Shown here: piece after piece, positions 57,768 through 61,989 of the stretch | Layout of the letters: every line of letters begins with the position of its first letter | Numbering within the stretch: the stretch's first letter is position 1 | Assembly: GCA_026400735.1 (NCBI GenBank) | Contig: JAPLOL010000128.1 | Location: 1-62,317 of the forward strand | Direction: 5' to 3' | Origin: Alphaproteobacteria bacterium | GTDB lineage: Bacteria; Pseudomonadota; Alphaproteobacteria; Caulobacterales; Aquidulcibacteraceae | Length of the DNA stretch: 62,317 bases | Program-made: the position numbers and the translations under genes | Notes under the pieces: generated by a model | What the model saw: the letters and a program-made list of their open reading frames with translations, nothing else | Database searches by the model: none | Told to the model about the DNA's origin: nothing

Positions 57768-59426
57768 ATGACCTTCATGCGAAATGCCTCGCGCCGCGCG
57801 TTGCTCGCGGGTGCTTCTGGCGCTGTGTTGACGAGCGGATGCGCGCCTTTTTTTTCTGCGCCTTCTGACACCGGTGACAATGCTCTGAAGCGCGACGCAC
57901 GAGACGCGATGAAGCGCGCAGCGCGGTTCATGCGCGAGCGCGTGGCGTATCGCGGCGGTTATGTGTGGAGCTACGCGTCGGACTTCTCGCGTCGCTGGGG
58001 CGAGATGGAAGCGTTCCCGTCTATGATCTGGATCCAACCGCCAGGCACGGCGACGGTTGGCCACCTCTATCTCGATTGCTTCCACGCGACGCGCGACGAG
58101 TTCTATTACCAAGCCGCGATGGATGTGGCTGACGGGCTCATCGCCGCGCAACATCCGGCGGGCGGTTGGAATTATCTCTACGATTTCGCGGGCGAGGAGA
58201 GCACGCGCCGTTGGTACGATACGATCGGCAAGAACGGCTGGCGGCTCGAGGAATTCCATCACTATTACGGCAATGCGACCTTTGACGACGCCGGCACGAG
58301 CGAGGCGTCGCAATTTCTGTTGCGGATGTATGTCGAGCGCCGCTCATCGCGCTTGCGTGCGCCGGTCGAGAAGGCGCTGCGGTTTGTGCTGGATAGTCAG
58401 TATGCGAACGGCGGTTGGCCGCAGCGTTTCCCGCTGACCACGGAAGGCGGCTTGCACGGGCACGCGGAATACACGCACCAAATTACGTTCAATGACGACG
58501 TTGCAGGCGAAAACATCAAATTTTTGCTGATGATCTATCAAACGCTCGGCGATGAACGCGCGTTGGCGGCCATTCATCGCGCCATGGGCATTTTCATCGC
58601 CACGCAGCAACCTGCGCCGCAAGCAGGGTGGGGGCTGCAGCATGACGCGCAGACGCTCGCGCCAATCGGCGCGCGAACCTACGAGCCGGATGCGCTGACA
58701 ACTCACACGACGGCGAACAACGTCTCGCAGCTCTTGAATTTCTACGAATGGACTGGCGAACAGCGTTTCATCGAGCGTGTGCCAGAGGCGCTGGCATGGC
58801 TCGATTCCGTGCGTCTACGCGATGATCAGGTGCAGGTCCCGAACCGGCACTATCCGACATACATCGAAATTGGCACGAACCGGGCGCGCATTGTGCACCG
58901 GCGCGGCTCGAATGTGGTGAATGGCGAATACTATTGGAACTACGACGTCACCAAGCCAATCACGCATTACGGCCAATGGCGCAATCTTGATGTTGACGCC
59001 CTGCGTGTCCGCTATGAACGCCTGCGCGCGGCAAACCCTCACTTGCTGGCGGCCAACTCGCCGCTCACCGCGCGGCCCGACTTCCGTCTGCCGCGTTACT
59101 TCACCACGCAGAACATCGAAGTCTCGGATCTGAATTCCAACGTCGGTTCGGGCGTTGTCCAGAGACCGGCGTCACAACGCGTGCAGGAGCTGGTCTCGAC
59201 GCTCAATGCGGAGGGCTATTGGCCGACGCCGTTAACTGCGACAAGCAATCCGTATATCGGCGACGGCGCCGCGACGCCCGCGCCAGGCGATTTCTCTCAG
59301 ACGTTGGTGGGCGATGCTTCCGATACGTCACCGCACACCACTGACCACCCCGTAACGGGCATCTCGACTGGCGCTTTCATCCAGAACATGTCCGCGCTTC
59401 TGCTCAGCATCGATTTAGGCGACTAG
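57768..59426 (+). CDS. Pectate-lyase-like (PL10 family) exported protein
   Basis: 552 residues. A twin-Arg-like signal and lipobox (NASRRALLAGASGAVLTSGCAP) suggest lipid-anchored export. The alpha/alpha-barrel style of PL10 is visible: QHPAGGWNYLYDF, DSQYANGGWPQRFPL, and ITFNDDVAGENIKFLLMIY. The typical PL10 catalytic Arg/Asp pairs are not all certain. The last 150 residues extend beyond the core. Substrate could be pectate or another uronan; no other pectin genes are near. Confidence 0.8.
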   Translation: MTFMRNASRRALLAGASGAVLTSGCAPFFSAPSDTGDNALKRDARDAMKRAARFMRERVAYRGGYVWSYASDFSRRWGEMEAFPSMIWIQPPGTATVGHLYLDCFHATRDEFYYQAAMDVADGLIAAQHPAGGWNYLYDFAGEESTRRWYDTIGKNGWRLEEFHHYYGNATFDDAGTSEASQFLLRMYVERRSSRLRAPVEKALRFVLDSQYANGGWPQRFPLTTEGGLHGHAEYTHQITFNDDVAGENIKFLLMIYQTLGDERALAAIHRAMGIFIATQQPAPQAGWGLQHDAQTLAPIGARTYEPDALTTHTTANNVSQLLNFYEWTGEQRFIERVPEALAWLDSVRLRDDQVQVPNRHYPTYIEIGTNRARIVHRRGSNVVNGEYYWNYDVTKPITHYGQWRNLDVDALRVRYERLRAANPHLLAANSPLTARPDFRLPRYFTTQNIEVSDLNSNVGSGVVQRPASQRVQELVSTLNAEGYWPTPLTATSNPYIGDGAATPAPGDFSQTLVGDASDTSPHTTDHPVTGISTGAFIQNMSALLLSIDLGD

Positions 59427-59484: not shown

Positions 59485-60945
59485 GTGACTGATCAAACTG
59501 CAGGCGAAGAACGCGTAATTCGATTGGCTTCGATCGTATCGATCGACATCGTCGGCTTCTCGACCATGTCGGAGCGCGATCAACGCAACGCTGCGCGCAA
59601 AGTCGAAAATCTGCGCGCGCGGATTGAACGCGTCGCGATCGCCAATGGCGGGCGTCTGTTCAACACGGCCGGCGACGGTTTCATGCTGGAGTTTGCGTCG
59701 GCGGGCCAAGCGCTCGGCGCGATCCAAGAATTGCTCGATAAGCGCGGCAAAGGGGAGCCGCCGATCCGCGTTGGTGCACACGTCGGCGATGTAATCGTCA
59801 CTGCGACGGACGATTTGCTCGGCCATGGCGTCAACGTTGCGGCACGTTTGCAGGAGCTTGCCGAGGCGGGATCCGCGCTCGTCTCATCTGAATTCCGTTC
59901 GATGGCGCGCAACTCGCCGCAGAGTGCCTTCCAGTCGAAGGGGCAGAAGCCGCTCGATAATATCGATCAGCGTGTGCAGACGTTCGAGATTTTGTCCAAG
60001 CGCCAAAAGTTCGCGCGTTCGTCGCGCCGTGTTGGCTCGATGGCGCTTGCCGCGGCTGTGCTCGGTGTGCTCGCCTATTTCAGCCCGCAGCTGTTCAGCA
60101 TGGGCATGGAATATTGGCGTAACCGTCCGCAGCCTGCTGCTGAACAACAGCAGGCTGAAGTGCAACAAGCGGCGGCGACAACTGTCCAAACGCCTGCCTC
60201 GCCGACAGAAGATTCACCGACGCGCGTGCCGGGCTACACGTTCAGCGATTGCAGCGGCTGCCCGGAAATGACCGTGCTTGCTGGTGGTTTGTTTGTCATG
60301 GGCTCGCCCGACAACGAGCCTGGCCGTGGCCGAGATGAGGGCCCGCAGCGCGAAGTCTCTGTCACGCCGTTCGCTATGGGCAAATACGAGGTGACGTTCG
60401 CCCAGTGGGACGCATGTCTCGCTGGCGGTGGTTGCAACGGATATTCGCCGCCGGATGGCGGTTGGGGCCGTGGCGATCGTCCGGTCACTGGCGTGTCGTG
60501 GGAAGATGCGCAGGCCTATGTGAATTGGCTGAATTCGCAGGCCGGTGGCACGAGCTATCGGTTGCCGAGCGAAGCGGAATGGGAATACGCCGCGCGCGCT
60601 GGCCAAGCGGCTGCGTACGCATTCGGAGCGCGCGTGACGCAAACCGAAGCGACGTTCCACGCGCGTCAAACAACGCCTGTCGGCGCGCACGCTCCGAATG
60701 CGTTCAACCTTTACGATATGCACGGCAATGCCGGCGAGTTGGTCGAAGATTGCTACGCGGCGAATTACGACCTCGCGCCGATCGACGGCGTTGCGGTCGA
60801 GGCGGACGAGTGCCGCCGGCGTGTCTATCGCGGCGGTAGCTACAACGACCAAGCTCCTGTGCTTCGTGCAGCGGCTCGCCGGTTCACGGAGACGACGTCG
60901 CGTACGCAAGGCATCGGCTTCCGCGTTGCGAGAACGTTGAACTAG
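59485..60945 (+). CDS. Class III cyclase domain fused to a formylglycine-generating-enzyme-like domain
   Basis: 486 residues from a GTG at 59485. The N-terminal cyclase homology domain (residues 11-175) has metal-binding Asp21 and Asp64, Asp110 for the purine position, and transition-state Asn117 and Arg121. Position 60, usually the adenine-specifying Lys in KTTGDG, is Asn (FNTAGDG). A single helix lies at about 184-203, then a Gln/Ala linker, then an FGE/SUMF1-like domain (255-486) with DCSGCPEM, MGKYEVTFAQWDACLAGGGC, SWEDAQAYVNWL, YRLPSEAEWEYAARAG and GFRVARTLN. The catalytic Cys pair of true FGE is not evident. Possibly an altered nucleotide cyclase gated by a periplasmic sensor domain. 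Confidence 0.9.
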   Translation: MTDQTAGEERVIRLASIVSIDIVGFSTMSERDQRNAARKVENLRARIERVAIANGGRLFNTAGDGFMLEFASAGQALGAIQELLDKRGKGEPPIRVGAHVGDVIVTATDDLLGHGVNVAARLQELAEAGSALVSSEFRSMARNSPQSAFQSKGQKPLDNIDQRVQTFEILSKRQKFARSSRRVGSMALAAAVLGVLAYFSPQLFSMGMEYWRNRPQPAAEQQQAEVQQAAATTVQTPASPTEDSPTRVPGYTFSDCSGCPEMTVLAGGLFVMGSPDNEPGRGRDEGPQREVSVTPFAMGKYEVTFAQWDACLAGGGCNGYSPPDGGWGRGDRPVTGVSWEDAQAYVNWLNSQAGGTSYRLPSEAEWEYAARAGQAAAYAFGARVTQTEATFHARQTTPVGAHAPNAFNLYDMHGNAGELVEDCYAANYDLAPIDGVAVEADECRRRVYRGGSYNDQAPVLRAAARRFTETTSRTQGIGFRVARTLN

Positions 60946-60967
60946 GCCAGGCGATACGGGTCATGTG

Positions 60968-61135
60968 ATGCACAAGGTCGTGCGCGTCCTGCTGGGTCTG
61001 GTCGCTCTAGCGATTGTGTTGGGCGTTGCCCTGATGATGGGGCTTCCGCGGCAAGAGGCGCTGCTGATCATCTTGGGTTCAGCGGCGCTCGTGATAATAG
61101 CCTCGGTGCTAGGGAACATGCGGAGAGACGACTAA
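60968..61135 (+). CDS. Small two-helix membrane protein (55 aa)
   Basis: 55 residues: two hydrophobic helices (VRVLLGLVALAIVLGVALMMG and LLIILGSAALVIIASVLGN) with a short basic tail (MRRDD). It begins 22 bases after the cyclase stop and is followed by the phosphodiesterase gene, suggesting shared regulation. No family recognised. Confidence 0.5.
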   Translation: MHKVVRVLLGLVALAIVLGVALMMGLPRQEALLIILGSAALVIIASVLGNMRRDD

Positions 61136-61230
61136 GCGTGCTCGGAGTGTGACCTCGGGCACAGACCTCGCTTGCTCGCTGCTTCATGTCGCGTTCAGGG
61201 AAGCGCGCCAAGAAGTGGGGTAGGGAGCAC

Positions 61231-61989
61231 ATGAGCGGAAAATTCCGTCTCGCGCAGATTTCTGACACCCATGTCCGTGCGGACGACGGGGGCTCAGCCG
61301 CGTTGCAATTGCGGCGCGCCATGACGCAGGCGGCAGAGTACGGCGCGGACGTCATTCTGTTGACCGGCGATCTGGTGAATGACGCGCGCGAGGATGAGTA
61401 CGTCGCGCTCGCCGAGGCGATCTCCAATCCGCCGGCGCCGCTTTATCTCATGCCCGGCAATCATGACGATCGCGGCCTGTTGCGGCGCTTCTTTTCGCAA
61501 CATGCTTATCTGCCGCGTGAAGGCGCACTGCACTTTACGATCGAGAACTTCCCGGTGCGCATCGTTGCGCTCGACGACATTGTGCCGGGCGAAACGCACG
61601 GTCTCCTGCGCCGCTCTGGCGCCGAGTGGCTGGAATCAGCGCTCTCCGTTGAGCGGACCAAGCCCACGATTGTGGCTTTGCATCATCCGCCGTTCCTTAC
61701 CCACGATTTGCTGTTCGACACGATTGGCCTGCTTGATGCGGAGGAGTTCGCGACTGTGGTCGCCCGCCACCGCCAGGTATTGCGGGTCATTTGCGGTCAC
61801 CACCACCGCGTCGCCATCGGTCAAGCGGCGCACGCGCCGGTGATTGTGGCGCCCTCAAGCTCCTGGACGTACGGCCTGGCTATGGATCCAGGGCAGCAGA
61901 TCGCGCCCAAGACCGCTGAACAGCCGGGTTGGATGCTGCACGCCTGGACGGATCATGGCGGTATGGCCAGCCATTTTATCGGGCTCTGA
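61231..61989 (+). CDS. CpdA-like metallophosphodiesterase
   Basis: 252 residues from the ATG at 61231, seven bases after AGGGAG. The calcineurin-like metallophosphoesterase motifs are complete: QISDTHV (DxH), LTGDLVND (GDxxN), MPGNHDDRG (GNHD), LHHPPFLTH (HHPP), and CGHHHRVAIG (GHxH). The size and spacing resemble 3',5'-cyclic-nucleotide phosphodiesterase CpdA/Icc. Its place next to a cyclase-domain protein suggests it removes the same messenger, but this is inference. Confidence 0.9.
   Translation: MSGKFRLAQISDTHVRADDGGSAALQLRRAMTQAAEYGADVILLTGDLVNDAREDEYVALAEAISNPPAPLYLMPGNHDDRGLLRRFFSQHAYLPREGALHFTIENFPVRIVALDDIVPGETHGLLRRSGAEWLESALSVERTKPTIVALHHPPFLTHDLLFDTIGLLDAEEFATVVARHRQVLRVICGHHHRVAIGQAAHAPVIVAPSSSWTYGLAMDPGQQIAPKTAEQPGWMLHAWTDHGGMASHFIGL

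Follow-up and report, generated by a model that had tools for sequence, protein, structure and literature searches.

We analysed a 62,317-base contig of an alphaproteobacterial genome that is assembled in 173 contigs; the whole of this stretch is referred to below as the window. Near its end, a gene encoding a class III nucleotide cyclase, fused through a single membrane helix to a domain resembling the formylglycine-generating enzyme (FGE) and PvdO, is followed on the same strand by a gene for a class III-type phosphodiesterase. Across the genus the two genes stay together, and the phosphodiesterase gene is preceded by a conserved palindrome of the CRP type, further copies of which precede a family of genes encoding peptides of about 30 residues. 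From the sequence we propose a circuit in which the cyclase product would act through a CRP homologue on the peptide genes, with the phosphodiesterase as feedback, and we consider the chances that this circuit as a whole is right or wrong to be evenly balanced. The features on which the analysis is based are the following.

59485–60945, plus strand: protein of 486 amino acids (aa) with a GTG start, consisting of a class III cyclase domain, a single membrane helix and an FGE/PvdO-like domain (PF00211, PF03781, hydropathy, orthologue alignment)
59521–59988, plus strand: class III nucleotide cyclase domain, residues 13–168 (metal residues D21 and D64, N60 at the position of the adenine-specifying Lys, D110, N117, R121)
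60040–60096, plus strand: predicted membrane helix, residues 186–204, with positive charge on the cyclase side (Kyte-Doolittle)
60259–60933, plus strand: FGE-sulfatase/PvdO-like domain with conserved Cys residues, lacking the FGE catalytic Cys pair, predicted to be extracytoplasmic
60968–61135, plus strand: 55-aa two-helix open reading frame (ORF), found in this genome only and probably outside the system
61148–61163, no strand: CRP-type palindrome TGTGACCTCGGGCACA, one mismatch to TGTGAN6TCACA, centred 75.5 bp before the ATG of the phosphodiesterase gene
61185–61190, plus strand: hexamer CATGTC, in the position of the [T/C]AnnnT of many related promoters (−12 to −7 for a site centred at −41.5); the match is incomplete
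61231–61989, plus strand: class III-type (calcineurin-fold) phosphodiesterase, CpdA/Rv0805-like, with the conserved start ATGAGCGG

The gene pair and its CRP-type site

Our main comparison set consists of 25 genomes of the genus, which is seen here in metagenome assemblies. A cyclase orthologue is present in 22 of them and a phosphodiesterase orthologue in 21, and in 19 of the 22 cyclase-bearing genomes the two genes are adjacent on one strand. In the three remaining cases the two genes lie 2.3 kb apart (G002), the locus ends at a contig edge (G015) or the phosphodiesterase is lacking (G021). In another genome, G003, the phosphodiesterase gene lies at a contig end, and the pair is also present in G076 and G135. 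The genes upstream of the cyclase vary. In 15 of the 22 loci these are an AMP-ligase gene kept together with a pectate-lyase-like gene (in the window at 57768–59426; PF09492 with 100.2 bits, the TIGR02474 cut-off not being reached), and in several others they are ABC-exporter genes. Because the pair stays together while the upstream genes change, the suggestion of a preliminary description of this DNA, that the two enzymes would make and break a messenger, is a reasonable one.

The same description proposed to look for the gene order in relatives, and it was found within the genus only. Among 80 phosphodiesterase loci taken from named records, a related cyclase is located nearby in 17 of the 18 close ones (60–88% identity) and is absent within up to 6 kb on each side in all 62 more distant ones. 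In G061, a relative from the same family (46% identity), no related cyclase is present within about 10 kb on each side of the phosphodiesterase gene.

The preliminary description also included the two-helix ORF located between the two genes, as part of a three-gene cassette. While the adjacency of cyclase and phosphodiesterase was borne out, we rejected the cassette because the ORF is found in this genome only; the system thus consists of two genes. The ORF has no Pfam or NCBIfam match, and a search of 40 related genomes gave best E-values of 0.006 to 0.1, in three genomes and inside larger frames. It is situated in about 190 extra bases that are missing from the nearest relative (96% identity in the cyclase domain); the spacer of G013 is also long and contains no ORF related to it. 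Apart from this ORF, nothing was recognised between the 19 adjacent pairs except, in G007 and G014, the remainder of a cyclase-FGE gene that is interrupted in these genomes (L055 and L056; these interruptions may be assembly errors).

Alignment of the 19 spacers between cyclase and phosphodiesterase revealed one strongly conserved block, TGTGNCCNNGGNCACA, plus a short tail, the remainder being little conserved. This block contains the palindrome, a feature that the preliminary description did not mention. In all 19 spacers the site differs at exactly one position from TGTGAN6TCACA, the core of the Escherichia coli CRP consensus TGTGAnnnnnnTCACA (PMC4005916), and its centre is located 63.5–101.5 bp before the phosphodiesterase start codon. 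A CRP-type site is likewise present in G076 and G135, and the displaced phosphodiesterase gene of G002 has kept a copy with two mismatches. In the window, TGTGACCTCGGGCACA is the sole match with at most one mismatch, where 0.04 would be expected. The looser pattern TGTGAN7CACA, also with at most one mismatch, occurs 10 times versus 7.9 expected, which is no more than chance; the evidence for the site therefore rests on its conservation and not on rarity alone. In line with this, 21 of the 25 genus genomes contain the strict motif and 1 of the 25 a backward control; among 16 genomes from elsewhere in the order the numbers are 1 and 2, respectively.

Other explanations of the palindrome were considered. 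A function as terminator or RNA hairpin was judged unlikely, since the aligned spacers show no run of Ts behind it and pairing between positions 5 and 12 is impossible in all 19 sites. The possibility that it is the end of a mobile repeat, raised by several copies lying at the edge of shared DNA, was rejected because for most of these copies the shared DNA held peptide genes. Two other copies (L121 and L126) additionally share DNA with a transposase-like ORF next to them.

The peptide genes, their promoters and the candidate regulator

Further copies of the motif are located, at a similar distance, upstream of genes encoding peptides of about 30 residues such as MTKFYALIAACAVFAPMAFATLNQAALIVA, which is matched by no Pfam or NCBIfam model. 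This peptide family is present in 28 of 30 genomes of the genus, in up to 23 copies per genome at E ≤ 0.01 and up to 25 at E ≤ 1, often in tandem. One sister genus has it in all four genomes, and it was not found in the 26 genomes that represent 12 other genera of the family; two further members of the order yielded matches of E = 0.2 and 0.5 only. A comparison of 62 distinct 30-codon genes gave 0.44 nonsynonymous per synonymous single change versus 2.8 expected, i.e., 0.16 of the expectation (the pairs compared are not independent), with residues Gln24, Ala25 and Ala10 invariant. The reading frame thus looks conserved as protein. The peptides are laid out as a Lys, a hydrophobic stretch, an AxA motif and a tail of ten residues, which looks like a signal peptide followed by a short mature peptide, so that they may be exported.

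To count sites in a non-circular way, only loci fetched by the peptide search were used (L347–L376), near-identical copies were merged, and L370, L371 and L373, which have no gene passing the length and E-value filter, were left out. In genomes with the CRP homologue described below (counting G014, whose copy is interrupted), all 25 lead peptide genes are preceded, at 71.5–87.5 bp, by a site with no more than two mismatches. The controls were uniformly negative: the reversed pattern gave 0 of 25, internal copies of the tandem arrays 0 of 15, and the two genomes without the CRP homologue 0 of 4. The genome of the window has three lead peptide genes with a site, one of them among the 25; 5 of its 12 peptide matches were inspected (contigs C10, C42 and C83; L377–L379).

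The spacing downstream of the site is fixed as well. A TAnnnT hexamer begins at an offset of exactly 21 nt from the site in 42 of 43 peptide promoters; none begins at any other offset between 0 and 59, and 0.4 would be expected from shuffled sequences. The 43 include promoters fetched by the motif; in the loci from the peptide search alone, the hexamer is found at this offset in 22 of 22. At a class II CRP-activated promoter the site is centred at −41.5 and the −10 hexamer begins 29.5 bp from this centre. With the site centre placed at −41.5, the hexamer found here would occupy positions −12 to −7, which would correspond to the class II CRP layout. The promoters of the phosphodiesterase genes show a related arrangement: NAnnnT is present at the same 21-nt offset in 14 of 20, the next best offset accounting for 5, and the full TAnnnT is present in 2 only.

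Some other genes share this layout. At L120 and L127 (G018 and G023) the same site, with TACCTT at the same spacing, precedes a gene encoding a 44-residue one-helix peptide, MTAAMTEMAHDARNTLQ..., which is a possible target, and at L124 (contig C3 of G018) the site and a TACATT hexamer precede a gene whose product, about 150 residues long, is unmatched and looks exported. The strict motif at L135 and L139 (G006:C10 and G000:C14), which have related surroundings, lies near a small exported-looking gene and has no hexamer at offset 21. The literature listings consulted contain no title on a cyclase-FGE fusion, on a CRP regulon in this group or on these peptides; they were not searched by peptide sequence and are no proof of absence.

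The candidate regulator is a CRP homologue encoded on contig C160 of the window's genome (G000). Its closest solved chain is 3d0s, of the CRP/FNR family (E = 2e-26), which we take to be the Mycobacterium tuberculosis CRP Rv3676. The homologue is present in 23 of the 25 genus genomes, and 22 of these 23 copies share one and the same recognition helix, GASREKVNRKL; the remaining copy (L339, G014) is interrupted, which may be an assembly error. The two genomes lacking it, G011 and G012, also lack the cyclase and phosphodiesterase orthologues, the strict motif and good sites before their peptide genes. The surroundings of the CRP gene also contain such sites: four genomes have a peptide gene that carries a two-mismatch site no more than 1.4 kb away, and another four have, at most 400 bp downstream of the CRP gene, a site differing from the strict motif at one position. 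Two further CRP-like regulators of the window's genome (L144 and L145, on contigs C41 and C158) are encoded near large ORFs that contain cyclase domains, at distances of about 3 and 5 kb.

The cyclase-FGE fusion and the phosphodiesterase

The domain composition given in the preliminary description was confirmed: the ORF at 59485–60945 matches PF00211 with 26.9 bits (cut-off 21.9) and PF03781 with 174.3 bits, and it contains one hydrophobic stretch, residues 186–204. The 12 residues preceding this stretch include four Lys or Arg and the 12 following it two. Similar values (4–6 before, 0–2 after) were obtained for 15 of 16 complete fusions compared, the exception being L042, for which the hydropathy maximum fell elsewhere. 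None of the Cys residues of the fusion is in the cyclase half and six are in the FGE half, in the same order in all 16. Because of this charge bias at the helix and the confinement of the Cys residues to the FGE half, a cytoplasmic cyclase with the FGE half on the other side of the membrane, as had been stated before, and in an oxidising compartment, fits the data.

The residues that define a class III cyclase, two metal Asp (D21 and D64) and the Asn and Arg of the transition state (N117 and R121), are all present, in agreement with the preliminary description, and, like the purine Asp (D110) and N60, show no variation among the 18 aligned orthologues. In addition, conservation within the protein is highest in the cyclase domain (78–93% identity versus 62–87% for the FGE half). 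Class III adenylate cyclases specify adenine by a Lys/Asp pair, and here N60 and D110 are found instead. From this Asn, which is indeed present, it had been argued that the product might not be cyclic AMP (cAMP). We rejected this argument because the same residue is found in the M. tuberculosis cyclase Rv1900c/LipJ (PDB 1ybt), which shares the NTAGDGF motif in the alignment, and at four further cyclase places of this genome. Rv1900c is reportedly active with ATP, and as it also has Asn, the adenine-Lys rule appears not to be absolute and N60 is weak evidence against cAMP. The similarity to Rv1900c has limits: its partner domain is an alpha/beta-hydrolase, whereas the window protein has a membrane helix and an FGE-like domain, and it has a His in place of the transition-state Asn (PMC4886424), which the window cyclase keeps. 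As regards the genome of the window, PF00211 matches eight other places, five of which align over the adenine-Lys position, with four Asn and one Asp; the alignments of the remaining ones (L001, L002 and L004) stop short of it, L001 having a Lys by eye.

The best PDB match of the FGE half is PvdO, with 145.9 bits by sequence and 274.9 bits with a 45-sequence profile. A structure prediction based on the 45 sequences gave a mean predicted local distance difference test (pLDDT) score of 95.3 and superimposed on PvdO with a TM-score of 0.90 at 37% identity; the model also matches human and bacterial FGE chains and thus has the FGE fold. The full fusion was modelled poorly (mean pLDDT 41.4 with 18 close sequences) and that model was not used, so that of the structure prediction called for in the preliminary description the FGE half succeeded and the complete protein did not. 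The FGE half shares with PvdO (PDB 5hha; NCBIfam name dihydropyoverdine dehydrogenase) its fold, a DCxxCPEM start and the lack of the FGE Cys pair. PvdO is, however, a separate protein, whereas the window domain is fused to a cyclase and scores 179 bits against the PvdO equivalog NF051459, below the cut-off of 500. As stated previously, the Cys pair that we take to be catalytic in FGE is absent: the human GGSYM-Cys/Ser...Cys stretch aligns with GGSYNDQAPVL, and the six Cys are located elsewhere.

In G002, G016 and G021 the cyclase and the helix are retained without the FGE half; by this comparison, therefore, the FGE half is dispensable to the module. Beyond the genus, L291, from another family of the class, has the same architecture of cyclase, helix and FGE domain (PF00211, 40.6 bits; PF03781, 192.3 bits), and a Gly takes the place of the adenine-specifying Lys (FVGSAGD). 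This protein came from a search of 385 genomes of the class, in which nearly all matches listed covered the FGE half only and one other (G611) extended into the cyclase half. Another partner of a PvdO-like FGE domain is seen in L299, a fusion with a caspase (Peptidase_C14).

The assignment of the second enzyme as CpdA-like was upheld at the level of the family (PF00149, 63.4 bits), with a score below the CpdA cut-off (see below). The start codon had to be corrected and is better placed at 61231 than at 61186, as most relatives have a start resembling ATGAGCGG in the alignment; a start at 61186 would lie within the promoter element. D12, H14, D47, N77, H78, D79, H151, H190 and H192, which form the motifs DxH, GD, GNHD, H and GHxH that we take to provide the metal ligands, are invariant in 21 of 21 phosphodiesterases.

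The proposed circuit and its rivals

In the circuit that we propose, the membrane-anchored class III cyclase would make a cyclic nucleotide in the cytoplasm, most likely cAMP, and the outer FGE/PvdO-like half may tune its activity. The product would activate the Rv3676/GlxR-type CRP homologue, which would bind YGTGAC-N4-GTCACR palindromes centred about 41.5 bp before transcription starts. Bound there, the homologue would turn on many of the ~30-residue peptides, with their signal-peptide-like part and ten-residue tail, and also the neighbouring phosphodiesterase, which would remove the messenger and so provide negative feedback.

Several observations weigh against this circuit. G021 has the cyclase and no phosphodiesterase, and among the 23 genomes of the genus listed in a second draw a phosphodiesterase was found at 1e-20 in 20 and in none of G021, G212 and G248. 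The co-absence of CRP homologue, gene pair and sites in G011 and G012 is suggestive only, because these genomes are 91% and 79% complete, respectively. With regard to the sites, the cyclase gene has none with fewer than three mismatches at promoter distance (in two genomes one with two mismatches is centred at 316.5 bp), the CRP gene has none better than three mismatches in its upstream 350 bp, 6 of the 20 phosphodiesterase promoters lack NAnnnT at the 21-nt offset, and the window hexamer CATGTC does not end in T. We rejected a broad canonical CRP regulon because a genus genome has only 0–5 perfect TGTGAN6TCACA sites. Concerning the regulator, the CRP homologue scores 61.5 bits against the CRP model NF008732, below the cut-off of 266, and in the 3d0s alignment it has Ala-Asp at the Thr-Asn pair of Rv3676, presumably Thr134 and Asn135, which we take to contact cAMP. 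This low score and the Ala-Asp replacement suggest that its ligand may differ. Finally, the genome has nine PF00211 places in total and two more CRP-like proteins with an R-E-x-V-x-R helix.

The strongest rival concerns the substrate of the phosphodiesterase. Like SpdA and Rv0805, the enzyme might mainly cleave 2',3'-cyclic nucleotides arising from RNA decay, or another phosphodiester, its control by CRP then shielding the messenger circuit; we think this possible, with about half the probability that we give to the complete circuit. The enzyme falls below the equivalog cut-offs of both CpdA (NF008359, 90.3 of 225 bits) and SpdA (NF050112, 84.8 of 400 bits), and its closest PDB chains are 2zo9 ('Phosphohydrolase'), presumably the glycerophosphodiesterase GpdQ, and then Rv0805. 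According to PMC4222275, the specificity of class III phosphodiesterases is not predictable from sequence. The Sinorhizobium meliloti cyaD1 locus described there resembles ours in having a class III-type phosphodiesterase, SpdA, at the locus of a cyclase, CyaD1, with a CRP-family regulator, Clr, in the circuit; SpdA is specific for 2',3'-cyclic nucleotides and showed no detectable activity on 3',5'-cAMP (PMC4222275). However, spdA is expressed there without need of Clr or cAMP (PMC4222275), whereas here a CRP-type site is present in 19 of 19 pairs, as a feedback enzyme would have, and the cyclase carries an FGE-like half. In Pseudomonas aeruginosa, the CRP-family protein Vfr directly activates the phosphodiesterase gene cpdA, which in the passages seen is not described as the neighbour of a cyclase (PMC13001225). 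What would be shared is a CRP-family protein acting on a phosphodiesterase gene; the differences are that the pair is adjacent here and that the other target would be the peptides of this and the sister genus. Because of the CRP-type site at the phosphodiesterase promoter, we favour feedback of the Vfr-cpdA type over an arrangement of the SpdA type.

Somewhat less probable is binding of the site by a different member of the CRP/FNR family or by an unrelated dimeric regulator, the shared control being unconnected to the neighbouring cyclase. The two other CRP-like proteins with R-E-x-V-x-R helices (L094 and L095) would be candidates, and the missing operator before the gene of the Rv3676-like homologue and its deviating residues at the presumed cAMP contacts point in the same direction. 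Against this, half-site and spacing are of the CRP type (compare the consensus TGTGAnnnnnnTCACA, PMC4005916), and G011 and G012, which lack the Rv3676-like homologue, lack the sites too.

In another reading, which we consider unlikely, the cyclase half would serve as a sensor without cyclising activity or would form another product, and the two genes would be neighbours by descent only. The Asn at the adenine-Lys position, the weak PF00211 score and the occurrence of the pair in one genus only would agree with this, but the metal and transition-state residues are invariant in all 18 orthologues of the domain that is best conserved, genomes without the FGE half still have the cyclase, and Rv1900c, reportedly an active enzyme, has the same motif. 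Less probable still is an autocrine extension of the circuit, in which exported peptides trimmed to ten residues (TLNQAA[L/Q]IVA) would bind the FGE/PvdO-like half and alter messenger synthesis, CRP raising the peptides and the phosphodiesterase closing the loop. In this reading the messenger could also be a nucleotide other than cAMP, as the cyclase (N60) and the CRP homologue (Ala-Asp) are both atypical. Against it, G016, G021 and G002 have the peptides and the CRP homologue and lack the FGE half.

The proposed cyclase-CRP-peptide circuit is made of parts of known kinds; what is new is their combination and the peptide output. To our knowledge, many alphaproteobacteria possess several class III cyclases, the outputs of which are mostly unknown. 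In this genus a cyclase, a probable off-enzyme, a CRP-type operator, a candidate CRP and its candidate target genes can all be read in the DNA, which makes the circuit testable, and the peptide family offers a new lead for the biology of small peptides that would be under CRP-type control.

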